This document shows positions 3,244-56,607 of a DNA stretch of 64,000 nucleotides, one piece after another; position 1 is the first letter of the stretch; each line of letters opens with the position of its first letter. Source of the DNA: Akkermansia muciniphila (lineage in GTDB: Bacteria > Verrucomicrobiota > Kiritimatiellia > RFP12 > JAAYNR01). Under the pieces are notes generated by a model that was not told the origin of the DNA, did no database searches, and saw only the letters and a program-made list of their open reading frames with translations. Both the position numbers and the translations under genes were made by a program. The stretch spans positions 1 to 64,000 of the forward strand of contig CAMBQN010000015.1 of assembly GCA_945870025.1 (NCBI GenBank), read 5' to 3'.

Positions 3244-3274
3244 AGAATCTCCAAATGAGAAGGGTCAATGCGCA

Positions 3275-3358
3275 GTGTTCGGTGTTCAGTTTGCAGTGTT
3301 CAGTGTTTAGTGTTCGGTGTTCAGTGTTCAGTGTTCGGTGTTCAGTTTGCAGTATTCA
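3275..3358. repeat. Heptanucleotide tandem repeat (GTGTTCR)x12, degenerate
   Basis: 12 consecutive 7-mers: GTGTTCG GTGTTCA GTTTGCA GTGTTCA GTGTTTA GTGTTCG GTGTTCA GTGTTCA GTGTTCG GTGTTCA GTTTGCA GTATTCA. Confidence 0.85.
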
Positions 3359-3442
3359 GACTCCTGCTTCCTTAGACAGGTTCTCAGGGTAGCGAGAATG
3401 ACGGCCTGCGGTCAAGTTCATTACCCATGGGCATCATGGGCG

Positions 3443-3641
3443 CATGGCAGTTCTGATGAGGGTTATTCCTTCCTCGTAATCATAATCGTAATCGTAATCT
3501 TAATCCTCCAACCCTCGCCGATCCGAGTCGTAGACGGCTCCCTGCTCATGCACACGATCAGGGGATGTGCTGCGGATCAATCCGAGCAAAGGATAACGAT
3601 TATGATTACGAATCAACGACCTCATCTGAACTGCCATCCGG
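3443..3641. repeat. Long imperfect inverted repeat (about 45-bp arms), MITE-like
   Basis: 16-bp perfect core TCGTAATCATAATCGT (3474-3489) / ACGATTATGATTACGA (3596-3611), extended by CATGGCAGTTCTGATGAGG (left) versus CCTCATCTGAACTGCCAT (right). Confidence 0.65.
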
Positions 3642-3871
3642 CTTTCCAAATAAAAACAAACTGCGCAGCTTTGCCGGATTCCCGGCTTGGCGCGGAATTA
3701 TGTAATTAGAAATCAGGAAATCAGGAAGGGAGCAATTTGGTTTGATCCATAGCAAAGATCATGGTACGGTAACTCATTAACTATTAACACAGTTGTTGAT
3801 TTTTAGCCGGTGTGAAAGCGGGTTCTCTGAACCGCTAATTTTGATCCTCTTTCAGAGGTTTGGCCGAGACG

Positions 3872-4552
3872 ATGAAAACGAAAACGAACTATGCTGGGCA
3901 TGACACGGCCTACAAACGACGCCGGGCAGAGGGCAAGGTCGGATGGGATGAGACACCGCAAGCCTATGCAGAAAGGGAGGCGGGTCTGATCAAACTTCTC
4001 GGCCAAGGTTATGCCCCATGTTCGGGTATGTTTCTTGAACTCGGTTGCGGTGCCGGTAACATCTCAATCTGGTTTGCTCAACACGGTTTTGAAGTCACCG
4101 GAGTAGATATTTCTGAGACTGCCATTCTCTGGGCACGTGAACGCGCTCAGAGTGCCGGAGTCAAAGCACAGTTCATGCTTGGCAATGTTCTTGAGTTGAA
4201 CGGCGTCCTTTCAGATGCGTCCATTGATTTTGTTCTGGATGGGCATTGTTTGCACTGCATCATCGGCGAAGATCGTAAGACGTTCCTCCAGACCGCATGG
4301 CGTTTCGCGAAATCCGGAGGTTTCTTTCTTGTTGACACAATGTGTGGCCCTGTCGAATCAGGGTCGGTTGACGGATATGATCCGGCATCGTGTTGCACAA
4401 TGATTCAAGGACTTCCAACCCGCTATTTTGGAAGCCCAGACCAGATTCAAAAGGAGATATGTGACGCCGGTTTCGATGTGTTGGACGTTTCGATTGAACG
4501 CAACAAGTCTCACGGGAACATGATGATTCAAGCAAGAATGAGACCAACATGA
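3872..4552 (+). CDS. Class I SAM-dependent methyltransferase
   Basis: Motif I LELGCGAGNISIWFAQHGFEVTGVDIS; Rossmann-type methyltransferase layout. Confidence 0.8.
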   Translation: MKTKTNYAGHDTAYKRRRAEGKVGWDETPQAYAEREAGLIKLLGQGYAPCSGMFLELGCGAGNISIWFAQHGFEVTGVDISETAILWARERAQSAGVKAQFMLGNVLELNGVLSDASIDFVLDGHCLHCIIGEDRKTFLQTAWRFAKSGGFFLVDTMCGPVESGSVDGYDPASCCTMIQGLPTRYFGSPDQIQKEICDAGFDVLDVSIERNKSHGNMMIQARMRPT

Positions 4553-4620
4553 TGCCTGAAAACTAGCTCGCAAAGCTCGCAGTTTCAGGCGTGACGTTCG
4601 GCAACGGAAAGGAGATCAAA

Positions 4621-4887
4621 ATGAAAATGAGCAAAGCAATCGGAATGGGGTCAGCCATCGGTGGCGTTGCTTCCTTCGGCGTGCTCTTCCTGTGCGGATC
4701 ACCTCTTGCATCGGATTCGCTTCTGCCTCTCGCATACGTGCCGACGAAGATATGCATGTGGCTGGCGGATGTTTGTTTTGGTGGAGGCGAGGGCGGGATG
4801 ATTTTCATACTTCCGGTCTGGCTGGCCTGTGGTGCAGTGGTGGGCGGCGCAACGGGTTCAATTGTCGCCGGGTTTTCAAGACTCTGA
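4621..4887 (+). CDS. Small membrane protein, hypothetical
   Basis: ATG with GGAAAGGAG RBS; two hydrophobic segments. Confidence 0.5.
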   Translation: MKMSKAIGMGSAIGGVASFGVLFLCGSPLASDSLLPLAYVPTKICMWLADVCFGGGEGGMIFILPVWLACGAVVGGATGSIVAGFSRL

Positions 4888-5066
4888 GGCAAACGAAGCG
4901 AACCAGTGGCGAAACCGTACGTCGCTTGTGCAAGCGTAGGGTTCAGGGTTCGGGGTTCGGTCGGGCCATCGGCCTGCGGCCGGATGGAAACGGAGACCGG
5001 GATTATCGGGATCGAAATCGAAATCGGGACCGGTCTCGATTCCGATACGAATGGATGGCATTCGCT

Positions 5067-5139
5067 CCACGATCAAATCCTCACGATAATCCGCATGATC
5101 TCGCTCTCTCAACTGCCGCCTCTCTGGCTAACCGATTAC
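5067..5139. repeat. Dispersed repeat R2 (copy 1)
   Basis: CCACGATCAAATCC..CACGATAATC..CGCATGATCTCG..CTCTCAAC..GGCTAACCGATTAC matches the reverse complement of 56530-56607. Confidence 0.65.
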
Positions 5140-5148
5140 CCGCAAAAC

Positions 5149-5356
5149 GGGCGCATCCCCGTTTCACTGACCTGCGATCGCCCGCCGCTACCGCACCGGT
5201 CGGCGCGTGATCGGGATCTACGAGACCGCTCACGCCGTCTGCGCGGTCCGATACGTCCCGCGCCACCGCTGCCGCGTCGGCCGGGGCGCTAGCCCACGTC
5301 ACAGGGCTGTCCACAGGATCGCCCGCTTGACAGGTCAGTGACACGGGGATGCGCCC
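5149..5356 (+). mobile_element. 208-bp MITE, copy 1, with 9-bp TSD (CCGCAAAAC, 5140-5148 and 5357-5365)
   Basis: 26-bp TIRs GGGCGCATCCCCGTTTCACTGACCTG / CAGGTCAGTGACACGGGGATGCGCCC; 3 mismatches to the inverted copy at 56318-56525 by eye. Confidence 0.9.
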
Positions 5357-5365
5357 CCGCAAAAC

Positions 5366-5541
5366 GGAGTTCACGGTTGACAATCCAGTCGGGGAAGGGT
5401 ACTTTGCTCGAAGTCAAAGGAGCGCGCGAATCACGCGGATGGAAGTACAGACGGACACGGACCATGTTGGACACCCACAGACACATACGGATGCTGCCGG
5501 AGCAGGTGGCGAACAAGATCGCGGCGGGCGAGGTGGTGGAG
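5366..5541 (+). repeat. 176-bp direct repeat of the mutL upstream region and first codons (copy 1)
   Basis: Aligns gap-free with 14699-14874 with 5 mismatches by eye; includes ATG and MLDTHRHIRMLPEQVANKIAAGEVVE. Confidence 0.93.
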
Positions 5542-6768
5542 GCGGACGCCATCACGGGGTTGTTGCGTGTCCTGCGGGCGGTGGTGAATCAGACGTGCCT
5601 GGAAGGCCCTCCCGTGTCGTGGCCCGATGTGTGGCGGGAGGCCTGCCGACACCACCTGGATGCGTATCTGTTTGCCGCCGTGCTGGAGTGGCCGGCGGCA
5701 CAACGGCCACCCCAGGCATGGATCGAACAGGCGAAATCGCTGTTCCTGTCAAGGGCCGCTGCGGCCGTGCGCATTCACTGTCAACTGGCTGACGTTCTGG
5801 GCGCTTTGCGGGGTGCGGGTGTGGCGGCGGTGCCCATCAAGGGCGCCTGGCTTGCCGAGCATGTTTATGCCGATATCGTTCAGCGTCCGATGCACGACAT
5901 TGACCTGCTGGTGCATCCGGCGGATGCGCCGCGTGCCGGCGACGTGCTCTGCCGTTTGGGCTATCGCGGGAACGAGCAGATTACGCCTGGAGGCTGGGGG
6001 AAGGATCAGCAGTTTCGGCATCCGGAAGGGCGTGTGGCGGTCGAACTGCATTGGCAGGTGGGCGCCCCGGATAACGACCTGTTGTCCGTGCCGGATACGG
6101 AGCGTATCCTGGGGCTGGCGGTGCGGGGCGTCGTCGCTGGCGTTGAGATGCCTGTCTTGTCCCTCGCCACCCACGTGGTCTATCTGATTTACCACATCTT
6201 GGCGCATCATTGGCGTTTCCCCGCGCGTGCTCATCTGGATCTGGTGCTTTTGGGCCGCAGGCACGCTTCGACCCTCACGGTTGAGGCTCTGGAGGCGGAG
6301 GCGCGCGTCTGGGGGTTGGGGGTCCGGGCTCCCTTTGTGTGGCGGGTTGCGCACGACCTGTGTGGCTGTGAGCCGCCAGCGTCTTTGACCGGTTGGGCGC
6401 CTCAGGATGCCGCCTGGATGGTGCGTGAAAGGGCGGCGGCGCTCGCCGTTGCGATGCCGAGAACCTCGTGGCGTGTTCCCATGTCGGCATTGCTGTGCGA
6501 CTATCAGCGCGCATCCGGAGTGAAGCGATTTGTCCTGGGGATGCGGGCTGTCTTGTTGCCTGCAGCGAATCTGCGTCATGCCTACCCGCGGGCGACGCGT
6601 TGGGGGGGGTGGCTGGGAGGGTGCGCCGCACGGCTCGCGGATCTCATCGGCCGCCGTTCACGCGATCTTCTGCCGGGATGCCGCAAACGGGAGGATATGG
6701 TTGACGCCGTGGATGATATGGCGGCCCGACTGGCCCTTGATCGGCGGTTGAAGGACCTGGAGGGATGA
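5464..6768 (+). CDS. Nucleotidyltransferase family protein (NTP_transf_5-like) with a MutL-derived N-terminal extension
   Basis: Core IKGAWLAEHVYADIVQRPMHDIDLLVHPADAPRAGDVLCRLGY...VAVELHWQV; N-terminus MLDTHRHIRMLPEQVANKIAAGEVVE identical to MutL. Confidence 0.8.
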   Translation: MLDTHRHIRMLPEQVANKIAAGEVVEADAITGLLRVLRAVVNQTCLEGPPVSWPDVWREACRHHLDAYLFAAVLEWPAAQRPPQAWIEQAKSLFLSRAAAAVRIHCQLADVLGALRGAGVAAVPIKGAWLAEHVYADIVQRPMHDIDLLVHPADAPRAGDVLCRLGYRGNEQITPGGWGKDQQFRHPEGRVAVELHWQVGAPDNDLLSVPDTERILGLAVRGVVAGVEMPVLSLATHVVYLIYHILAHHWRFPARAHLDLVLLGRRHASTLTVEALEAEARVWGLGVRAPFVWRVAHDLCGCEPPASLTGWAPQDAAWMVRERAAALAVAMPRTSWRVPMSALLCDYQRASGVKRFVLGMRAVLLPAANLRHAYPRATRWGGWLGGCAARLADLIGRRSRDLLPGCRKREDMVDAVDDMAARLALDRRLKDLEG

Positions 6769-6783
6769 GGTGAGGCACCCGAA

Positions 6784-6812
6784 AACAGCAATTCTCAATT
6801 TGAGCGCATCCG
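6784..6812. repeat. 29-bp dispersed repeat AACAGCAATTCTCAATTTGAGCGCATCCG (copy 1)
   Basis: Exact match to 31966-31994. Confidence 0.8.
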
Positions 6813-6890
6813 TACAGTCAAAATCTCCGAAAAATCCTGTGGACTTTTTTTCATAAAACTGTGAAAATTAATTCACTTTTTCGTTTTGGT

Positions 6891-6930
6891 CAAGCCAACG
6901 CAAGCCAACGCAAGCCAACGCAAGCCAACG
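6891..6930 (+). repeat. (CAAGCCAACG)x4 tandem repeat directly upstream of a GGAGG RBS
   Basis: Four perfect 10-bp copies. Confidence 0.95.
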
Positions 6931-6942
6931 GAGGATTGGACT

Positions 6943-8262
6943 ATGAAACAGAAGCCAGAGTGTATGTTCGGCAATGACGGTGGAAGCCGGGTGTGGGTCA
7001 TGGTGGGCGTGATCGTGTCGGTGCTGGTCTCCGGGGTGCTGGCGGATACGAACAACGTCATCGGAACACACAACAACTGGCCGACCAACTGGATTCCGGT
7101 TGTCAGTCTCAACGATGGCAATGACGGACTCGGCCGCCAGCTCGATTTCGTGGGCGACGCCTCATCGCCGGGAGGATATTACCGGGTTGCCTCTGATTAT
7201 GTCTATTTTCGCATGCGCGTTCAGCTTGGGACCAACAGCAGCTCGTTTACCGATTCGCATTTCGTGTTGATCAACGTGGCGTCGAACAATTATAACACAA
7301 CCAGTAAAGCGCTCGATCAGGGACCAGACGACGGTTATCCCGATTATGCGTTCGCGTGGGATAGCCAATCCAATGACCCGGCCAAACACGGCCTTGAGAT
7401 GATGGTGCGTCAAACCGTCAATAATTCTTGGGGCGGGGTGAGAATGGATGATATTGATTTACAAAATGCCCAGAAACTAGCCAATGACATCAATGGAGAT
7501 AACCGGAATACAGATGGTTATCTGCGGACGATTGATCGTGTCGCCACGCCCAACTTTGGTGAAACGATCTTTGTGGATTTTGCGGTTTCCTGGAGTTATC
7601 TGTACGCCTACACCGGCTTGCGGTCCAATCAGTTGTGGAAGGTCGCTTTTGCGTCAATCGCGAATGCGACCGATCACAATTTTATCAACGGCGATGTGTC
7701 GGGTGGCGCGTCTCCATCCAGTCTGGTGACGGAGGGGTGGTCGAACTGGGGTTCGACAACGCCGACAACGACCAGTTCGGGGATCGACCTGCGCGCCTAT
7801 CAGGGAGCTGATGGGGTCTATGTCGAGTTCGTGGCGTACGACGTTGAGCAGAATGGGGAAGCGAAATTGATCCTGCTGGGCGCGGGTGGCCAGGAGGTCT
7901 GGCGTGGCACAACTCCGGTCAAAGCCGGCGAGCGCTTTGTTTACCGGTTCGTGGTTCCCAGTTTGGTTTTGGGCGGCACGTATGACTTTATCGTGAACGA
8001 CGAGGTCGGCAACCAATGGACGCTCAACGGGGTGACGGTTCAACCGTTTGCGGCGGAGATGATCAGCATGACGCTCACGGGGGTGACACTTTCTTTTGAC
8101 AGTTTGCCGGGGCGTGACTATGAGGTGCAGTGGACGGAACGGCTGAATTCGGGTTTCTCGCCCCTCACCAATGTCACCGCCGTCAGCGGACGCACCACGG
8201 TTTTCGTGGCGCATCCCAAGCCGAATGCCGCGTCCGGGTTCTTCAGAATACGGGCGCAGTAA
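6943..8262 (+). CDS. Secreted protein of unknown function with C-terminal ...GFFRIRAQ tail
   Basis: ATG after GGAGG; signal-peptide-like segment VWVMVGVIVSVLVSGVLA; C-terminus resembles that of the next gene (AFFRIRELE). Confidence 0.65.
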   Translation: MKQKPECMFGNDGGSRVWVMVGVIVSVLVSGVLADTNNVIGTHNNWPTNWIPVVSLNDGNDGLGRQLDFVGDASSPGGYYRVASDYVYFRMRVQLGTNSSSFTDSHFVLINVASNNYNTTSKALDQGPDDGYPDYAFAWDSQSNDPAKHGLEMMVRQTVNNSWGGVRMDDIDLQNAQKLANDINGDNRNTDGYLRTIDRVATPNFGETIFVDFAVSWSYLYAYTGLRSNQLWKVAFASIANATDHNFINGDVSGGASPSSLVTEGWSNWGSTTPTTTSSGIDLRAYQGADGVYVEFVAYDVEQNGEAKLILLGAGGQEVWRGTTPVKAGERFVYRFVVPSLVLGGTYDFIVNDEVGNQWTLNGVTVQPFAAEMISMTLTGVTLSFDSLPGRDYEVQWTERLNSGFSPLTNVTAVSGRTTVFVAHPKPNAASGFFRIRAQ

Positions 8263-8380
8263 CGGCGCGGGGCCTGTGCGAGTGGACTCCGGTTGGCACG
8301 GTGTGATCGTTCCTCGTTGGTTTCATTCCTTCCCGGGATACCGTGTGTTTGATGGCAGGTGAAAACTCAGGAGTTGGCTG

Positions 8381-11230
8381 GTGCGCGTGCTTGCACTTAT
8401 AGTTTTCCTCGGAGTGCGGGTTGCCGATGCCGCCACTCCGATCTTGCTGTTTGCACCGGAAGTCGAGGTCTCGGCGTGTCAAGCATCGTTAGAAACGAAG
8501 CCGGGGGTGGCGGTGTTCCTGAAGACGTCCCTCGCGGAGTCGCCGCCATCGGCACAGTCGTGGATTGGCAATCACGTTCGGGTGTGTGAGTGGCGAGAGG
8601 AAACGCCTGCCGACCGTGTGCGGCTGAGCCTCCGTCACGAGGGGCTTTATCGGGTCTCCGCGCAAGAACTCGCCGAGGCCGGCGGGTGGGATGAGGCGGC
8701 AGTTTCCCAGGCGTTGAGTGAGACGAATCTCAGCCTGACGTGTCAAGGCGCTCCCGTCGCGTGGATGGCAGAGCGTGACAACCTCTATTTCTACGGCATG
8801 CCCGCCGCGCACCGCTATGCTCCCGAGAATGTCTACTGGGTGGCCTGGGGGGCGGGGACGAATCGAACGTGCGTCATGCGTGCCGAACCGGAACACCCGG
8901 TCACAAACGCGTGGTTCGGCGAACGACTCACGTTTCAAGGTACCAGCTATTTATCGCGAGTTTCGTATAGCTCGCTGGCCGATGTGCCGGTGTCGTATCT
9001 GGCGGATGGAACAGTGCTTTTGCAGAATAAGGCGCATACGCCAAGCTTCACCTTGCCGGACTGCAGCAGTGGAGTTTGGAATGGGGCGGTGACGGTCAGT
9101 TTGGTGTCCTTTTTTGAAGCCGGATATGAGGGCCACGATCATGTCGCGCGTGTTTCGGTGGGGGGTGTCCCCGTGGGCGATCCTGCGATCTGGCTGGATG
9201 AACAGGCGGTTTCATTGGCCGTGCCATTCTCATCCACTCAGATGGTGGGAGAGGCGGTTTCCCTGCTCATCGCGAACGAGACGGTTATCCCGGCCGGCGC
9301 TCCGGATATCAGTCGCTTTCTGTGCCTGTCCTATGCCTTTGACTATCGGCGGTTGTATCGGGCGCGTGGAGACACGCTGCGTTGCAGGGGAGGGGATGGC
9401 AACACGGTGGCGGTTTCGGGGTTTGGCACCAATGATGTCGTCGTGTGGGATGTGACGAACCCGCACCAACCGGTGGAGGTGGCCCCGGTGGCTTTTGCGG
9501 AGGACGGTCTGACTTCTGAGTGGACGGCTTCCTTTTCCTGCGGCGGGAGCGGCGTTGTTTACCGGGTGTGTTCGCTATCGCGGGGGACGCGGGAGCCCTC
9601 GGTCCGCGGCGTGCGCGATCGAGACTGGGCGTCGGTCGCGCAGGCCGCCGATTATGTGATGCTGATTCCCCCAGAAGGCTGGTGCCGTGGTTTCCGGGAA
9701 ACCTTGCAGCCCCTGGCCGACTACCGAAACGCAGAGGGGTTGAAGACCGTGATTGTGGATGTTGAGTCACTTTACGACCATTACAGTGATGGGCTGGTGG
9801 ATCCCCTTGCGATTCGGGCGTTTTGCGCACAGGGGCGCGCATGGGCAGGGCGTCCCTTGCGTTACCTGCTGCTGACTGGGGCGGGTTCGTTGGATTTCAA
9901 GCACGATCGGTTCACGGTCGGTGATTATACCGCCTGTCTGATTCCCACCCTGATAGCGGGTCAGCGATTCTCCTCCGGCGAGGCGATGACGATGGCGCTG
10001 GACGGTGCGCTGGGCGATGTGGACGGTGATGACATTCCGGACGTGGCGATTGGGCGGTTGCCGACCACGCGCACTCAGGACGTCGCCACGGTCGTCCAGA
10101 AAACGATCGCCTATGAGGGCGTTCTCACACGCGAGGATGGCTCGCTGGCCAAAAGCTATGCCGTCATTGCGCCCGACTGGAATGGCGTCCCGAATTCAGA
10201 TAAGTACTATCTCTTTGATCAGGCGACCGATCGACTGCGGATGCCGCTCGAAGCCGCAGGACGGAGATTCCTCGCGAGTTATCCCGACCCGGCCGACCCC
10301 GAGAATCCATCCTTGGTGAAGCGTGACGTTCTTTTTCCCGCACTGCAGGCAGGCACGGGCCTCTTTCATTTCTTTGGGCACAGCAACAAAAACTCCTTGG
10401 GATTCAAAGAACCCAAGCTGTTGCTGGGAAGTACGGACATCAAGCCGACAAACTGGCAGCGGCCGACGCTGGCGGTTCTGATCGGCTGTCAGGTCAACGT
10501 GTGGCACTATTTAACGGACTATTCCGTGACGCTGGTTCCGTACGGGACCTTTGCGAAAAACACCGGTTTTGTCGCGGGCTTGGGGTCAACGGGCTTTTTT
10601 TTGGCGCACGAAGGGGCTGAATTAGGAGTTCATTTCTATGCCGAGGCGGCCGCACAGGGGACGGTACGGATTGGCGATGCCCTGCGAATGGGACTGAAAA
10701 AGACGATGGAAGACCCCGTGCTGGACCCCGAGCAATTGCCCTCTCTGGAGAAGGAGCATTTCCGCAAGCGGATTTTGTCTTTCAGTTTGGTGGGTGATCC
10801 GGCGTTGGTATATCGGCATGACGTGACACCCCAGGGAACGGATGTCGGATGGCTGATGGGACAGGGGCAATGCGCACCGCAAGCCGATCTGCAAGACCCT
10901 GATGCTGACGGGTGGCCTAGTTGGCAGGAATACCAGGCGGGGACGGCGGCAACCGGATGTGTGCTCCGCATCAAGGCTTGGGAATCGATGGACGAGGGCC
11001 GACGGGCGCTTGCGTTTGAGGCGAATGGGGCCAAGCGCTATCACGTGGAGCAGAAGCAGTCCTTAGCGGCCGGCGACACCTGGCAAGCTGTCCCCTGGTC
11101 TTGGACGAACGCGACGGATTGGACATCCGATACGGTTCCCATTCAGCCTCAGGGACCCGTCACCCGGATCACGATTCCGGGGTCACCGGGAGCATCACGC
11201 GCTTTTTTCCGGATACGTGAGCTGGAGTAA
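8381..11230 (+). CDS. Secreted C25 (gingipain/PorU-like) cysteine peptidase
   Basis: Signal peptide; GLYRVSAQEL N-terminal region; GALGDVDGDDIPDVAIGRLPTTR; catalytic His in LFHFFGHSN and Cys in LAVLIGCQ. Confidence 0.82.
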   Translation: MRVLALIVFLGVRVADAATPILLFAPEVEVSACQASLETKPGVAVFLKTSLAESPPSAQSWIGNHVRVCEWREETPADRVRLSLRHEGLYRVSAQELAEAGGWDEAAVSQALSETNLSLTCQGAPVAWMAERDNLYFYGMPAAHRYAPENVYWVAWGAGTNRTCVMRAEPEHPVTNAWFGERLTFQGTSYLSRVSYSSLADVPVSYLADGTVLLQNKAHTPSFTLPDCSSGVWNGAVTVSLVSFFEAGYEGHDHVARVSVGGVPVGDPAIWLDEQAVSLAVPFSSTQMVGEAVSLLIANETVIPAGAPDISRFLCLSYAFDYRRLYRARGDTLRCRGGDGNTVAVSGFGTNDVVVWDVTNPHQPVEVAPVAFAEDGLTSEWTASFSCGGSGVVYRVCSLSRGTREPSVRGVRDRDWASVAQAADYVMLIPPEGWCRGFRETLQPLADYRNAEGLKTVIVDVESLYDHYSDGLVDPLAIRAFCAQGRAWAGRPLRYLLLTGAGSLDFKHDRFTVGDYTACLIPTLIAGQRFSSGEAMTMALDGALGDVDGDDIPDVAIGRLPTTRTQDVATVVQKTIAYEGVLTREDGSLAKSYAVIAPDWNGVPNSDKYYLFDQATDRLRMPLEAAGRRFLASYPDPADPENPSLVKRDVLFPALQAGTGLFHFFGHSNKNSLGFKEPKLLLGSTDIKPTNWQRPTLAVLIGCQVNVWHYLTDYSVTLVPYGTFAKNTGFVAGLGSTGFFLAHEGAELGVHFYAEAAAQGTVRIGDALRMGLKKTMEDPVLDPEQLPSLEKEHFRKRILSFSLVGDPALVYRHDVTPQGTDVGWLMGQGQCAPQADLQDPDADGWPSWQEYQAGTAATGCVLRIKAWESMDEGRRALAFEANGAKRYHVEQKQSLAAGDTWQAVPWSWTNATDWTSDTVPIQPQGPVTRITIPGSPGASRAFFRIRELE

Positions 11231-11233
11231 GTC

Positions 11234-11524
11234 ATGACCTATTGTCGAAAGCCCGAGATTGTAGCCCGATCAGTTGCCGGAGAGCATGTTTTGATTCCCA
11301 TACAGGGGTGCACGAATCGGGTGTATACCGTGAACGGCGTGGGACGGTGGTTATGGGAATTGCTTGCGACGCCGTGTTCAGACGGGGATTTGTTGGAGGC
11401 GCTGGTGGAGCGTTACGGCCTTTCGCCGGAGACGGCGTGTGTCGATGTGCGCCACTTTCTGGATGAAATGAAGCGGATGGGGCTCGTGGAAGTGGTGGAA
11501 GGATGGAAGGATATCGGGCGGTGA
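11234..11524 (+). CDS. PqqD-like protein (RiPP recognition element)
   Basis: PqqD-type wHTH layout: RSVAGEHVLIPIQGCTNRVYTVNGVGRWLWELLATPCSDGDLLEALVERYGLSPETACVDVRHFLDEMKRMGLVE. Confidence 0.8.
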   Translation: MTYCRKPEIVARSVAGEHVLIPIQGCTNRVYTVNGVGRWLWELLATPCSDGDLLEALVERYGLSPETACVDVRHFLDEMKRMGLVEVVEGWKDIGR

Positions 11525-11606
11525 AGAATCCGGAAGAATCCGGTGTTGACGTGGGTCCGTTTATTCTGAATAATGTGAATCCAAACGGTTTAAAAGGGAG
11601 ATGACT

Positions 11607-11786
11607 ATGGGCTGGATGGATCGTTCCCGAGAATACAGTGGCGAAGAGTATCGCTCGCCTGCGGTGGCCGAACATCAATTAGACGCGGGCGGCAATTACG
11701 TCAGCCCCGCATGGGCTGTGGGTGATGTTGACAAACCTTCTACGGGTGGCGGGATTGTGCCGTTGGATGGGTCGCCCGCGCTCTGA
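11607..11786 (+). CDS. Candidate RiPP-type precursor peptide (59 aa)
   Basis: RBS AAAGGGAG; MGWMDRSREYSGEEYRSPAVAEHQLDAGGNYVSPAWAVGDVDKPSTGGGIVPLDGSPAL; YxxPxV motif; lies between PqqD-like and HprK-like genes. Confidence 0.6.
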   Translation: MGWMDRSREYSGEEYRSPAVAEHQLDAGGNYVSPAWAVGDVDKPSTGGGIVPLDGSPAL

Positions 11787-11825
11787 TGTGAGGCGATCTT
11801 TGTCACGGGTATTTGGGATCAGGGC

Positions 11826-12791
11826 GTGGTTTTGCCCCTGAGTGTGGGGGTGTTCATGTCTCCAGTTACTGCCGCGATGCAGCCGACATTAACCTTGGGG
11901 GGAGTACGGTTCACGCTGCGGGGAACGGGAGATGCGTTGGCGTTCCGCCCCGCCTTTGAACCCTTCTGGACGCGCGAGGAGACGGCTGATTTGGCGTGTG
12001 AGGTGTTGTGTTGCGGTGCCGACGCGACGCTGGCCTTACGGCCCAGCATGCCCGACCGCCCCTGGTCTTTCACGGTACAGGCGGGATGCTGTGACGTGGT
12101 GCGCCGCAATCAGGCAGGGGAAGCGCTTTGGCGGCTGGTGGCACCGCTCTCTTTCGAACAGGTTGAAGTCACGTGGAACCCCGTGTTATTTCCGGATTTC
12201 TTCGGCTCGTATGAACGGGCATGGAGCACGGGCCTGGGGATATGCCTGCTCGCCTTCCGGTTGCGCGCCTGCGGCGGACTGGTGCTTCACGGGACGGCCG
12301 CCGACCTGCAGGGAGAGGGCATCCTGTGTCTCGGCGTATCGGGAAGAGGTAAAAGCACGCTGGCGCGCCTGTTGGATGCTGAAGGGATTCCGGTGCTCAC
12401 AGACGAGCGCCCGATCGTAAGGCTCATGCGGGAAACGCCTGCGGGCGACGTTCCGGGGTCACCCCGTTTTCACGTTTATGGTTCGCCCTGGCCCAGTTCG
12501 GCGGGATTTGCGGCGCAGGCGCGCGCCACGCTGCGGCGCATCTACTTCTTGGAGCACGGGCGCGAAAACCGCCGGGTGCCCTTGACGCCGCCCGAGGCGT
12601 TCCGTCGTCTCATCCAGGTGGTGGCCATTCCCTGGCAGAATCCGGTTCTGTTTGATCCCTGCCTGGAGACGATTCAGACGCTGCTGGAGACCGTTCCTGC
12701 GGCTGTGCTCGCGTTCCGTCCGGACGCGTCGGCGGTCGACTGGGTGCGCAACGGAGGGGGCGTGAACGAAGCGGAGGTGGGCGTTGAGTAA
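11826..12791 (+). CDS. HPr kinase-like (HprK-related) P-loop kinase
   Basis: GILCLGVSGRGKSTLARLLDAEGIPVLTDERPIVR (Walker A plus HprK-type following region); ATG at 11856 is an alternative start. Confidence 0.75.
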   Translation: MVLPLSVGVFMSPVTAAMQPTLTLGGVRFTLRGTGDALAFRPAFEPFWTREETADLACEVLCCGADATLALRPSMPDRPWSFTVQAGCCDVVRRNQAGEALWRLVAPLSFEQVEVTWNPVLFPDFFGSYERAWSTGLGICLLAFRLRACGGLVLHGTAADLQGEGILCLGVSGRGKSTLARLLDAEGIPVLTDERPIVRLMRETPAGDVPGSPRFHVYGSPWPSSAGFAAQARATLRRIYFLEHGRENRRVPLTPPEAFRRLIQVVAIPWQNPVLFDPCLETIQTLLETVPAAVLAFRPDASAVDWVRNGGGVNEAEVGVE

Positions 12792-14589
12792 GCTCCGGAA
12801 ATGGCGCGAAATCACCGCCCCCTGCCTGCGTGCGTTGCATCTGGCATGGGCGAGTTCGCGCCCGCTGGCGTGGTTGCAGACGGGTCTCGTGGGGCTCCAA
12901 GCCCTGGTGCCGCTGGCAGCCCTGTATACCTTGAAACGGGCTGTGGATGCGGCGTCGGCCGCGTTTACGCAGCTTGCGGATCAACCTGTAACCGGATTGG
13001 GGTCCCTCACGTTGCGTCTGGCGCATGATCCGGTGGGGCGGGCGGTGGCGTTCTGGTTTGTGGCGGGTGCCGGTGTCATGGCCGTATCGGCCTGTTTGCG
13101 AGTGTGGGTGGCGTGGGTGGCAGAACAGCATGCCATGGCGGTGAGCGACCATGTTCATCGTTTGCTGCACCAGAAGATGACAGAGATCGATCTAGCCTTT
13201 TTCGACAACACGGCCGACCAGGATCGTTTGCATTTCGTGCAGGAACAGGCGATGAGCCGGCCGGTGGCCGTATTGGGATCGGTGTATCAGATCTTTCAGA
13301 GTGTCATCGGGCTCTTGGGCGTGTTGGCCCTGATTTCGCTCCTCCATCCGGTGGCTGGATTGGTGCTGGTGCTTTCCGGAACCCCAGGCCTGTTGCTGCG
13401 GATCTACCGGGGGCGACGGTATTACGAATGGCGCAAGGTGCTGGCGCCCTTGGAACGTGAAGCGGGTTACTTTCATCACCTGCTGACATCTGGCGATGCC
13501 GCCAAAGAAATCAGGGTTTATCGGTTGGGCGAATTCTGCCGCCAGCGGTTTGATGGTGTGCGCATGCGGTTGCGGCAAGCCCGTCTGGCGTGGCGCAAAC
13601 AGACGTTGCGGGAGGAGTTTGGCCTTCAGATCTGGGTGTGGGTTGTGGCGAGCGGGTTGCTGCTGTGGATGACGGGTAACCTGCTGACCCACGGGATCAC
13701 GCTTGGCGCGTTGGTCATGTATGCTCAGGCCGTCCAGCGTGGACAAGGGTTGCTGGGTTCGCTTGTCGGCGCGATTGCGGATATGCGTCAATCCGCTTTG
13801 TTTCTGGCTTCTTTCGACGAGTTGCTGCATCTGCCTGCTGACGTGAAGGCGCCCCCTGTTCCGCGACCGGTCCCGTCCTCGTTGGTCCACGGGGTGGTCT
13901 TTGATCACGTGAGTTTTGCCTATCCGGGAAAAGAGCGGCCCGTGCTGGATCAGGTGTCGTTTACGTTGCGTGTCGGCGAGCGGATTGCCCTGATGGGGCC
14001 GAATGGGTCGGGCAAATCCACGATCCTCAAACTGCTGGCCCGGCTCTATGATCCCGATTCGGGACGGATTCTGGTGGATGGCGTCGATGTGCGCGAATTC
14101 GACCCGCAAGCCTGGCGCTGTCGGCTGGGTTTTTTGTTTCAGGATTACGGATGCTATCAACTGACGGCTGCAGAGAATATCCGCTTGGGAGACCCGATCT
14201 CGGCAGACATGGAGATTCGGGTGGACGTGGCCGCCCGCCAGGCGGGGCTTGATGAGTGTCTGCGGCAGTGGCCGCAGGCGATTGACACGGCGTTGGGACG
14301 GAAGTTTCAGGATGGAATTGAACCCAGCATGGGACAGTGGCAGCGACTGGCGATCGCGCGCGCGCTTGTGCGACAATCAGATCTGCTGATTCTAGATGAG
14401 CCGACCCGGTCACTCGACGCCCGTAGTCTGCATGATTTGCAGCGTCTGCTGGCGCAGACGGACGCCCATCGGATCACGTTGATTGTGAGTCATCGCGAGG
14501 AGTTGATCGCGGTGGCGGATCGCGTGCTGATCGTCGCCGAAGGTCTGGTGAGTGATGCGGAAACGCGGCCGGCGGGTGACGAAAGGTAA
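12784..14589 (+). CDS. ABC transporter, fused permease/ATPase (exporter)
   Basis: TM N-terminal half; Walker A LMGPNGSGKST, Walker B LLILDEPTRSLDARS, degenerate signature PSMGQWQRLAIARAL. Confidence 0.92.
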   Translation: MSKLRKWREITAPCLRALHLAWASSRPLAWLQTGLVGLQALVPLAALYTLKRAVDAASAAFTQLADQPVTGLGSLTLRLAHDPVGRAVAFWFVAGAGVMAVSACLRVWVAWVAEQHAMAVSDHVHRLLHQKMTEIDLAFFDNTADQDRLHFVQEQAMSRPVAVLGSVYQIFQSVIGLLGVLALISLLHPVAGLVLVLSGTPGLLLRIYRGRRYYEWRKVLAPLEREAGYFHHLLTSGDAAKEIRVYRLGEFCRQRFDGVRMRLRQARLAWRKQTLREEFGLQIWVWVVASGLLLWMTGNLLTHGITLGALVMYAQAVQRGQGLLGSLVGAIADMRQSALFLASFDELLHLPADVKAPPVPRPVPSSLVHGVVFDHVSFAYPGKERPVLDQVSFTLRVGERIALMGPNGSGKSTILKLLARLYDPDSGRILVDGVDVREFDPQAWRCRLGFLFQDYGCYQLTAAENIRLGDPISADMEIRVDVAARQAGLDECLRQWPQAIDTALGRKFQDGIEPSMGQWQRLAIARALVRQSDLLILDEPTRSLDARSLHDLQRLLAQTDAHRITLIVSHREELIAVADRVLIVAEGLVSDAETRPAGDER

Positions 14590-14698: not shown

Positions 14699-14874
14699 GG
14701 AGTTCACGGTTGACAATCCACTCAGGGAAGGGTACTTTGCTCGAAGTCAAAGGAGCGCGCGAATCAGGCGGATGGAAGTACTGACGGACACGGACCATGT
14801 TGGACACCCACAGACACATACGGATGCTGCCGGAACAGGTGGCGAACAAGATCGCGGCGGGCGAGGTGGTGGAG
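14699..14874 (+). repeat. 176-bp direct repeat of the mutL 5' region (copy 2, native mutL)
   Basis: See 5366-5541. Confidence 0.93.
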
Positions 14875-16680
14875 CGTCCGGCATCGGTGGTGAAGGAGCT
14901 TGTCGAGAATGCCATTGACGCAGGGGCGCGCCGAATCGAGGTGCATGTCGCCGCGGGTGGTCGCAAGCTGATCGAGGTGCGCGACGACGGGAGCGGCATG
15001 GGCCGTGACGACGCGCTGATGAGCATCGAGCGGCAGGCGACGAGCAAGATCCGGGATGTGGACGACATTGAGCGCATCAGCACGCTCGGGTTTCGCGGCG
15101 AAGCCATTCCGGCGATTGCATCGGTCTCGCGTTTCACCCTCAAAACCTGCGCCGCAGGAGAGGGGGAGGGGACGGAGCTGACGGTGATTGGCGGCCGGTT
15201 GCAAGACGTCAAGGCGGCCGGATTTCCCCAGGGAACAACCATCGAGGTCAGGGATTTGTTTTTCAACGTCCCGGCGCGGCGAAAGTTTTTGCGGGCGTAT
15301 CAAACCGAACAGGCGCACATCCGCACGGTGTTTACGCTGCACGCGCTCGCCCATCCGGAGATCGGGATGGCGCTCCAGTCGGACGGACGGGACGTGGCGC
15401 GGCTGGCGCCGGAGTCGACGCTGGAGGATCGTATCCGCGAGCTGTTTGGCGCAGAATTTCTGACGGGGCTGCGGCCGGTTTCGCGCGAACTGGCGGGCGT
15501 GTCCGTGACCGGATTTGTGGGCTTGCCGGCGTTGACCCGTTCGGATCGGAGCGACCAGTACGTCTTCATCAATGGCCGTCCTGCGACCGCACCGGTGATC
15601 GCCTACGCCTTGCGCGAGGCCTATCCGCCGCTGGACGGCGAGCGGAAGCCCGTGGTGTTCCTGTTTCTGGCGATGAACCCCGAGCTGGTGGATGTCAATG
15701 TCCACCCGACCAAGCGCGAGGTTCGGTTCCGGCGGCCGGCCGATGTGCGCGAAGCGATAATCGAGGGGATCTGCGCGGCGTTGGGGCGGACGCGGCGTCT
15801 GGCGGTTGCAACGGGGGCGGCCGCGTCATCCGCTGGCGGGGCCGGGCACCCGCCGGAGGGCGCATGCGGCGTGGATGCGGCGCTGCCGGTCATGCCGACG
15901 GCTGCCCCGCCGCCGGGCCAGCCGGCGCGCGATCTGCCGTTGCCGCCGCTGCGGCCGCCCGGGGGCGTGCCGCTGCCGTTCGATTATCCGGGGAAGACCT
16001 TGCCGTGTCCGCAAGCGCCCCCTCCGGTCGTCGAGGCCGTGCCTGCGGCGGAAACGCCGCAACCCCTCGACGACGCCTTTGCCGGCGGCGCGGGGGCGCC
16101 ATGGGCCTGGTGCCGCGTCATCGGTCCGGTGGGCGGCTTGTATCTGCTGCTGGAGATCGATTCCGGGTATGTCGTGCTGGACCCGCGAGCCGCGCACGAG
16201 CGGGTGCTTTACGAACGGCTGCTGGCGCGGGTCAGGCGCGGCGAGGCATTGACGCAGACCTTGCTGCTTCCCGAAACAGTGGTCCTGCCGCCAGCGCATG
16301 CCGAGCGGTTGCGCGGATGGCTGACGGTCTTGCAGCGAATGGGGTTTGGGGTGGCTGAGTTTGGCGGCGACACATTTCTGGTGGACGCGTTGCCTCCGGA
16401 GGTTGCGGCCGTGCCCTGCCGCAGCCTGTTGCTGGACATTTGCAACGATCTCGAGACGCTCGGTGCGCGGCGCGGCGCAGAGGGGTGGCGTGAGGATGCG
16501 CTGGTGCGGGCGGCGTGTGCGGCGGCGGTCAAGAACGACGGCGCGCTGGCGACCGAGGAGGCCGGGCAATTGGTGCGCGACCTCGCTGCATGCCGCATGC
16601 CGTACACCTGTCCACGTGGCCGTCCGACGATGATTCTCACGACGTACCGCGAACTGGCGCGCAAATTCGGCCGCGCCTAA
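14797..16680 (+). CDS. mutL: DNA mismatch repair protein MutL
   Basis: RMLPEQVANKIAAGEVVERPASVVKELVENAIDAGA; IRDVDDIERISTLGFRGEAIPAIASVS; VDVNVHPTKREVRF. Confidence 0.97.
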   Translation: MLDTHRHIRMLPEQVANKIAAGEVVERPASVVKELVENAIDAGARRIEVHVAAGGRKLIEVRDDGSGMGRDDALMSIERQATSKIRDVDDIERISTLGFRGEAIPAIASVSRFTLKTCAAGEGEGTELTVIGGRLQDVKAAGFPQGTTIEVRDLFFNVPARRKFLRAYQTEQAHIRTVFTLHALAHPEIGMALQSDGRDVARLAPESTLEDRIRELFGAEFLTGLRPVSRELAGVSVTGFVGLPALTRSDRSDQYVFINGRPATAPVIAYALREAYPPLDGERKPVVFLFLAMNPELVDVNVHPTKREVRFRRPADVREAIIEGICAALGRTRRLAVATGAAASSAGGAGHPPEGACGVDAALPVMPTAAPPPGQPARDLPLPPLRPPGGVPLPFDYPGKTLPCPQAPPPVVEAVPAAETPQPLDDAFAGGAGAPWAWCRVIGPVGGLYLLLEIDSGYVVLDPRAAHERVLYERLLARVRRGEALTQTLLLPETVVLPPAHAERLRGWLTVLQRMGFGVAEFGGDTFLVDALPPEVAAVPCRSLLLDICNDLETLGARRGAEGWREDALVRAACAAAVKNDGALATEEAGQLVRDLAACRMPYTCPRGRPTMILTTYRELARKFGRA

Positions 16681-56317: not shown

Positions 56318-56525
56318 GGGCGCATCCCCGTTTCACTGACCTGTCAAGCGGGCGATCCTGTGAACAGCCCTGTGACGTGGGCTAGCGCCCCGGCCGACGC
56401 GGCAGCGGTGGCGCGGGACGTATCGGACCGCGCAGACGGCGTGAGCGGTCTCGTAGATCCCGCTCACGCGCCGACCGGTGCGGTAGCGGCGGGCGATCGC
56501 AGGTCAGTGAAACGGGGATGCGCCC
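56318..56525 (-). mobile_element. 208-bp MITE, copy 2 (inverted), with 9-bp TSD (GACCGTAAT, 56309-56317 and 56526-56534)
   Basis: See 5149-5356. Confidence 0.9.
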
Positions 56526-56529
56526 GACC

Positions 56530-56607
56530 GTAATCGGTTAGCCACAGGGGGAGGCCGTTGAGAGGTCGAGATCATGCGGAAAGATTATCGTGGGGATTTG
56601 ATCGTGG
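56530..56607. repeat. Dispersed repeat R2 (copy 2, inverted)
   Basis: Reverse complement aligns with 5067-5139. Confidence 0.65.

Follow-up and report, generated by a model that had tools for sequence, protein, structure and literature searches.

A candidate phosphopeptide pathway in Kiritimatiellota: lasso-type tailoring genes without lasso machinery, paired with a C25 protease

Seven genes at positions 5464-14589 of the 64,000-nucleotide stretch of DNA analyzed here (the window, from contig CAMBQN010000015.1) raise the question of what a set of peptide-tailoring genes might do in the company of a secreted protease. All lie on the + strand of a fragmented metagenome-assembled genome (MAG) of 2.76 Mb in 59 contigs, and they encode, in order, an NTP_transf_5 protein, a secreted protein, a C25 protease, a PqqD-family protein, a 59-residue peptide, an HprK-like kinase and an ABC protein. 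We consider it probable that the cassette represents a phosphopeptide pathway resembling those of ribosomally synthesized and post-translationally modified peptides (RiPPs), composed of the tailoring half of a lasso peptide cluster and paired with a C25 protease. At the level of sequence, this proposal is carried by the conserved gene order, the recognition motif of the peptide, the active site and fold of the kinase, and the loss of cysteine from the peptide along with the radical SAM gene.

In the proposed pathway, the 59-residue peptide would be made in the cytoplasm, and PqqD would bind its YxxPxV leader motif and present it to the HprK-like kinase. The kinase would phosphorylate a conserved serine near the C-terminus (Ser56 or, alternatively, Ser33) and the phosphate would then probably receive a sugar or nucleotide from the NTP_transf_5 protein, in the manner of PsmN in pseudomycoidin. 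Export would be by the ABC protein, and the secreted C25 protease would cut the peptide outside the cell, most likely by removing the leader.

The cassette and its parts

The genes of the cassette are as follows.

5464..6768, + strand: nucleotidyltransferase-like protein of the NTP_transf_5 family (PF14907), PsmN type (Pfam, E=2e-40)
6943..8262, + strand: secreted protein of 439 residues, with a hydrophobic segment near residue 19
8381..11230, + strand: secreted gingipain/PorU-like C25 cysteine protease (Peptidase_C25, PF01364, E=1.8e-47)
11234..11524, + strand: PqqD-family RiPP recognition element (RRE) of the lasso B1 type (PF05402, E=4.8e-15)
11607..11786, + strand: candidate precursor peptide of 59 residues, with the recognition motif and a good ribosome-binding site upstream
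11826..12791, + strand: predicted HprK-like peptide kinase, start approximate (motif spacing, HprK fold, Pfam HPr kinase C-domain E=0.0047)
12784..14589, + strand: ABC protein, a candidate peptide exporter, with fused permease and ATPase and without a C39 peptidase domain (ABC_tran, E=2.3e-32)

A first-pass annotation of this DNA had proposed the same seven open reading frames (ORFs), and all were found in place on the + strand. Its description of their close packing was also borne out, as the C25 stop (11230) and the PqqD start (11234) are separated by 3 bp, and the kinase (end 12791) and ABC (start 12784) genes overlap by 8 bp. The NTP_transf_5, Peptidase_C25, PqqD and ABC_tran families were all matched in Pfam. 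By sequence the kinase matched the HPr kinase C-domain only weakly (E=0.0047), and its identity became firm once relatives were added for AlphaFold and Foldseek analyses.

Distribution of the cassette in related genomes

The first-pass annotation made its proposal depend on conserved co-occurrence, and the peptide, PqqD and kinase genes were found together in relatives across the whole class. A neighborhood survey found the same window-type order repeated in several genera. The order C25-PqqD-peptide-kinase-ABC is kept in L018 (same-genus genome G001), L021 (G012), L059 (G067), L060 (G068) and L061 (G063), while in L019 (G029) the peptide gene is shifted to a position between an upstream surface-protein gene and the C25 gene. 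In L019 and L021 the NTP_transf_5 gene comes after the ABC gene. It is on a separate contig in G001 (L123), and in G002 the parts are divided between two contigs, with PqqD-peptide-kinase on one (L020) and ABC-NTP_transf_5 on the other (L124).

When 346 class genomes were searched with a profile of the kinase, 78 gave a match. With kinship ignored, PqqD was present in 74 of these 78 genomes (Fisher p=1.9e-38) and C25 in 69; eight genomes have the peptide-kinase pair together with PqqD even though the two lie on different contigs. The C25 gene is directly upstream of PqqD, often by only a few bases, in 30 of the 46 PqqD-kinase loci with enough sequence. An earlier count from the coordinates in the match lists gave 38 PqqD genes with a same-strand C25 gene no more than 6 kb upstream, against 5 in other orientations. 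Based on this conserved coupling, we take the C25 protease to belong to the system.

Inspection of approximately 65 loci led us to distinguish three arrangements. Type I, which is spread over the class, has the order C25-PqqD-radical SAM-peptide-kinase, often with NTP_transf_5 added; the identity of the radical SAM protein was confirmed by Pfam in two of these loci. Type II is the window type, in which the radical SAM gene is missing and the ABC gene is present. Type III consists of a 47-residue peptide and the kinase only, the C25-PqqD pair being encoded at another site (L022, L023). In the two-gene loci L062-L070 the kinase accompanies the near-invariant 47-residue peptide MAKSDAFAKTSKKRFEVADASEVKLGVGGTFKAEQIGTLGINSGNVE, and PqqD is elsewhere in most of the genomes; in the two inspected, L022 and L023, it adjoins C25. 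Tandem precursor genes were observed upstream of a single kinase gene in L115 and L082.

PqqD also adjoins the weak kinase relatives that were found outside the class, in other families of the phylum. Three such loci (L126, L127 and L128) have kinase-PqqD with a nearby YxxP peptide that does not end in serine, one of them with a radical SAM gene, and none has C25. Since kinase relatives beyond the class sit by PqqD and near YxxP peptides, the trio of peptide, RRE and kinase appears to be broad; its link to C25 is seen here in Kiritimatiellota. In a contig scan, the kinase had a single distant relative (L003, in a Kiritimatiellae MAG), and the window is accordingly assigned to Kiritimatiellota. 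There was no sign of carriage by phages or plasmids in the viral-contig and plasmid searches, as no kinase relatives were found in the viral contigs searched and no relatives of the L060 peptide in the plasmids searched; the peptide, PqqD and the secreted protein matched no PHROG family. The genome containing the window encodes a second PqqD-like protein (L002, 1279-1695 of G000:C54), whose gene is just before an RNase H-like gene and has no peptide or kinase gene within the stretch read.

The precursor peptide

The peptide of the window has a Y15-x2-P18-x-V20 motif followed by L25-D26-x-G28-G29-N30-Y31-V32-S33. It is conserved in eight window-type loci in the pattern YxxPxV...LDxGGNYVS...LGxS, and YxxPxV is present in all eight peptides. 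The residues Y, P, V, L, D, GG, N, Y and V were invariant in the first five loci of this type. What type II peptides have in common is Y-x2-P-x-V-x4-L-D-x-GGNYV and a serine close to a conserved leucine near the C-terminus, with four of them terminating in TLG[N/T]S[I/V]I[E/K]. All window-type and two-gene-type peptides have such a serine near the C-terminus, a few residues past a conserved position (in L021 a tryptophan replaces the leucine). The related YxxPxL leader motif has a role in lasso systems (PMC10368454).

The type I peptides, encoded between the radical SAM and kinase genes, have YxxPx[VLI] and an EVLxxGCK-like turn. A C-terminal serine was found in 39 of 48 type I candidate precursors, 29 of which end in GS, an enrichment with P below 1e-27 at a background of 12%. 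As controls, the Ser-ended share was 10.8% among the 3442 remaining short ORFs of these loci, and 15 of 158 for short ORFs bearing the same motif elsewhere. The true fraction is higher than 39/48 because some of the nine other candidates are spurious ORFs.

These features are of interest since the HprK-like kinases PadeK (of paeninodin) and PsmK phosphorylate a C-terminal serine (PMC9266682). In pseudomycoidin, the annotated nucleotidyltransferase PsmN adds a hexose to the phosphoserine (PMC9266682). By contrast, BsfK phosphorylates Ser3 of the core, not a C-terminal serine (PMC10368454). Based on these precedents, both Ser56 (codon 11772-11774, within an LxxS motif) and Ser33 are candidate phosphosites in the window peptide. 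We favor Ser56, as Ser33 is replaced by aspartate in L021 and is absent from type III. We regard phosphorylation of the peptide on a serine as strongly suggested.

Cysteine is absent from all 16 type II and III peptides when these are read from the conserved methionine (the two cysteines of L067 fall in an upstream extension before that residue). At least two cysteines are present in 41 of 43 peptides picked from the radical SAM loci, the exceptions being L082, in which the radical SAM gene is missing and the peptides have no cysteine, and one spurious ORF. The absence of cysteine where radical SAM is absent indicates that peptide chemistry and enzyme content change together, and the window-type peptides have lost cysteine along with the radical SAM enzyme. 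As the window type has no cysteine, radical SAM enzyme or cyclase, a linear product is plausible.

The HprK-like kinase

The window kinase has the residues H155, G170, G173, G175, K176, S177, D193 and E194. The resulting pattern, H-x14-G-x2-G-x-GKS-x15-D[D/E], has the spacing of BsfK (H148-G163-G166-G168-K169-S170-D186-D187) and was matched by 59 of 67 kinase relatives, 37 with DD and 22 with DE. An AlphaFold model based on 26 aligned relatives had a predicted local distance difference test score (pLDDT) of 90.8 (a model from a five-sequence alignment had reached only 48). Foldseek matched the former best to HPr kinase/phosphatase with a probability of 1.00; the template modelling scores were modest, so we read the match as fold membership rather than close similarity. 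On this model, the predicted fold of the kinase is firmly that of HprK. In a tree of the 67 kinases, those of types II and III grouped in a single starred clade (17 members, 97/94) that is nested within the kinases of type I. An involvement of PqqD in kinase function would have a precedent in BsfK, which is greatly stimulated by the RRE protein B1 (PMC10368454).

The C25 protease and its upstream neighbor

The first-pass annotation had described the protease as gingipain/PorU-like, and this identity held: in addition to the Pfam match, the protein aligns with PorU (6za2) and gingipain R, PorU being the best, and the catalytic His and Cys line up. His667 and Cys703 are invariant in an alignment of relatives, and the N-terminus is hydrophobic. 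The simplest role for the protease is removal of the leader outside the cell, although we regard this as the weakest step of the model and its chances as not quite even. A wider proposal, that across the class C25 proteases act outside the cell on phosphopeptides made by the kinase, either as a new RiPP leader peptidase or as a transpeptidase that attaches a phospho(glyco)peptide to surface proteins, is possible but doubtful. Several C25 genes, some for proteins of 3000-4000 residues, were observed on one contig with a radical SAM-kinase cassette in L074, L078, G103:C14 and G104:C70. Given such tandem and giant genes, C25 may instead be a target or partner of the system and not its maturase.

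The secreted protein encoded at 6943-8262 matched no Pfam family above the cut-off. Surface-type proteins encoded upstream of C25 in L019, L059 and L061 share its C-terminal region. Proteins with the C25-type C-terminal domain are more numerous in cassette genomes than in ten C25-less genomes (p=1.6e-4). The domain is equally common in C25-positive genomes without the kinase (p=0.22), also occurs in a genome in which C25 was not detected (G160), and has only two matches in the genome of the window. The shared domain was considered as a sorting signal tied to the cassette and was set aside, there being no excess over the C25-positive, kinase-less genomes. A search for SprA, of the type IX translocon, gave 0 matches in 11 genomes; no control gave a match either, and the outcome carries no weight.

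The mutL duplication and the position of the NTP_transf_5 gene

A 176-bp direct repeat brackets the cassette, and its two copies are 97% identical:

5366..5541, + strand: left copy, a duplicate of the mutL promoter and first 26 codons
14699..14874, + strand: right copy, the functional 5' end of mutL
14797..16680, + strand: mutL, the gene whose 5' end is duplicated (Pfam and relatives)

In the same-genus genome G001, the M1-peptidase gene and mutL are 186 bp apart (L027, 7837-8022), compared with 11.5 kb in the window. Of the two copies, the left one retains the flank that precedes this empty site, and the right one retains mutL. Each copy has private substitutions relative to G001, and for this reason, together with the retention of the flanks, we take the duplication to be old and real. 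The repeats are thus, judged by their sequences, a diverged duplication of the mutL promoter and start; an assembly chimera was considered as their cause and rejected on account of the private substitutions in both copies.

Codons 1-26 of the NTP_transf_5 ORF (5464-5541) are the copied mutL start, fused in frame, and MutL models match residues 5-29. The conserved NTP_transf_5 part therefore begins near 5542; relatives elsewhere have their own, unrelated N-termini. The left copy provides the fused ORF with its promoter, ribosome-binding site and ATG. Orthologues are downstream of the ABC gene (L019, L021, L124), and the gene, last in L019 and L021, stands first here, behind the copied mutL promoter. 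By analogy with PsmN, its product probably decorates the phosphate with a sugar or nucleotide.

On the side of the M1-peptidase gene, a further insertion (3422-5356) is absent from the G001 site. It contains a methyltransferase gene of low GC content (3860-4552) along with a small membrane-like ORF, and ends in a 208-bp element (5149-5356) with 26-bp inverted ends that is also found at 56318-56607. There are 72 matching pieces of this interspersed element in the genome of the window, many of them separate ends, and 21 in G001. Since it is at contig ends several times, it probably breaks the assembly. A short degenerate tandem repeat of TCAGTGTTCGG-like units (3265-3359), upstream of the M1-peptidase gene, is also absent from the empty site of G001.

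Comparison with known systems

The closest likeness is to the tailoring module of the paeninodin and pseudomycoidin lasso clusters, which the cassette resembles in its YxxPx[V/L] motif, PqqD-type B1 protein, kinase spacing, PF14907 N protein and ABC exporter; the radical SAM relatives additionally share the C-terminal serine. The leader motif and B1 protein are those of lasso clusters in general, and the best NCBIfam match of the window PqqD, below cut-off, was the lasso PqqD chaperone. The predicted kinase likewise agrees with lasso-type kinases (PadeK/BsfK) in motif spacing and HprK fold, with Glu in place of the last Asp. However, the cassette is without a B2 protease, lasso cyclase or ring acceptor, and its surface-type protein and secreted C25 protease are additional. 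The absence of B2 and cyclase, noted in the first-pass annotation, was confirmed among the cassette genes and ten further window ORFs scanned, and the assumed core after GG, GGNYVSPAWAVG, has no Asp or Glu at positions 7-9. As in RiPP pathways generally, a short precursor, an RRE and a tailoring enzyme are conserved together.

Other known systems are less similar. SynChlorMet (NCBIfam ScmC/ScmD/ScmE/ScmF) has PqqD-like, HprK-like and radical SAM proteins in one cassette, like our radical SAM relatives, and ScmC was the best NCBIfam match of the window kinase, although at 24.7 bits against a cut-off of 125 (ScmD, 18.9 against 100); the window type lacks radical SAM, and NCBIfam names no C25 part there. 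HPr-rel-A (TIGR04352/TIGR04353) also has an HprK-related kinase partnered by a protein of the PqqD family, but the scores were low (HprK_rel_A, 21.4 against 200 bits; PqqD_rel_X, 13.8 against 35) and no C25 partner is named. PorU, the type IX secretion sortase, shares the C25 domain, aligned His and Cys and secretion, whereas the window protein scored 98.8 bits against the NCBIfam cut-off of 420 and has RiPP genes as its operon partners. No paper on such a cassette was found in the open-access literature searched, which does not prove that there is none.

Alternative explanations

Several observations weigh against a phosphopeptide pathway as proposed. The second Asp of the kinase motif is Glu in the window (as in the 22 DE relatives), and BsfK demonstrates that such kinases need not use a C-terminal serine (PMC10368454). 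NTP_transf_5 was looked for in G063 and not found, and L020 is incomplete, with ABC-NTP_transf_5 elsewhere. The frequently tandem or giant C25 genes of radical SAM loci (L074) would be odd for a dedicated leader peptidase. The near-invariant peptide of the two-gene loci no longer has YxxP (it reads F..A) and is encoded without an ABC gene nearby, making it a poor fit to an exported antibiotic. These loci, along with the homology of the kinase to HprK and conservation of the whole peptide, unlike that of a variable antimicrobial, would suit intracellular signaling, with the peptide as an HPr-like phospho-switch, perhaps controlling C25 secretion or activity, and the ABC and NTP_transf_5 proteins as accessories. 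We consider signaling unlikely, as PqqD is conserved alongside a peptide that bears an RRE motif, the operon of the window type has a dedicated exporter built into it, and the peptide cores of the radical SAM relatives are variable, rich in Cys and Ser-ended, as is typical of RiPPs. Surface anchoring, in which C25 would be a PorU-like transpeptidase joining a phospho(glyco)peptide to secreted proteins or exopolysaccharide, would accommodate PorU as the best alignment of C25, the surface proteins with a shared C-terminal domain upstream of it, the richness of cassette genomes in that domain relative to the C25-less set, and genes adjoining L059 and L060 that resemble polysaccharide export genes by sequence. 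It is nevertheless improbable in view of the equal frequency of the domain with C25 but without the kinase, its occurrence in G160 and its mere two matches in the genome of the window.

The first-pass annotation had also raised the possibility of a decayed lasso cluster, here one from which B2 and C have disappeared. The A, B1, K, N and D components do all belong to the lasso-tailoring type, but a remnant is contradicted by the B2/C-less order being intact in several families, by the nesting of the kinase clade among radical SAM and not lasso loci, by the missing acceptor at ring positions 7-9, and by no close relative having been seen with B2 and C beside the cassette; we judge it very improbable. 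A chance neighborhood, or an assembly chimera at the mutL repeat, might be suggested by a fragmented MAG with repeats at the cassette edges, yet it is scarcely credible given the private substitutions in each copy, the in-frame NTP_transf_5 fusion and the recurrence of the cassette in other genomes independent of mutL.

Implications

Together, these data indicate that the module by which lasso peptides are recognized, phosphorylated and decorated exists, and is conserved, without the lasso machinery, and that across a poorly studied bacterial group it is tied to C25 proteases. The loci provide over forty short precursor peptides as candidate substrates, most of those of the radical SAM type being Ser-ended, with a predicted phosphosite. 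The radical SAM type, with its Cys-rich, Ser-ended peptides, and the window type without radical SAM form a natural experiment that may reveal the part of the peptide on which each enzyme acts.

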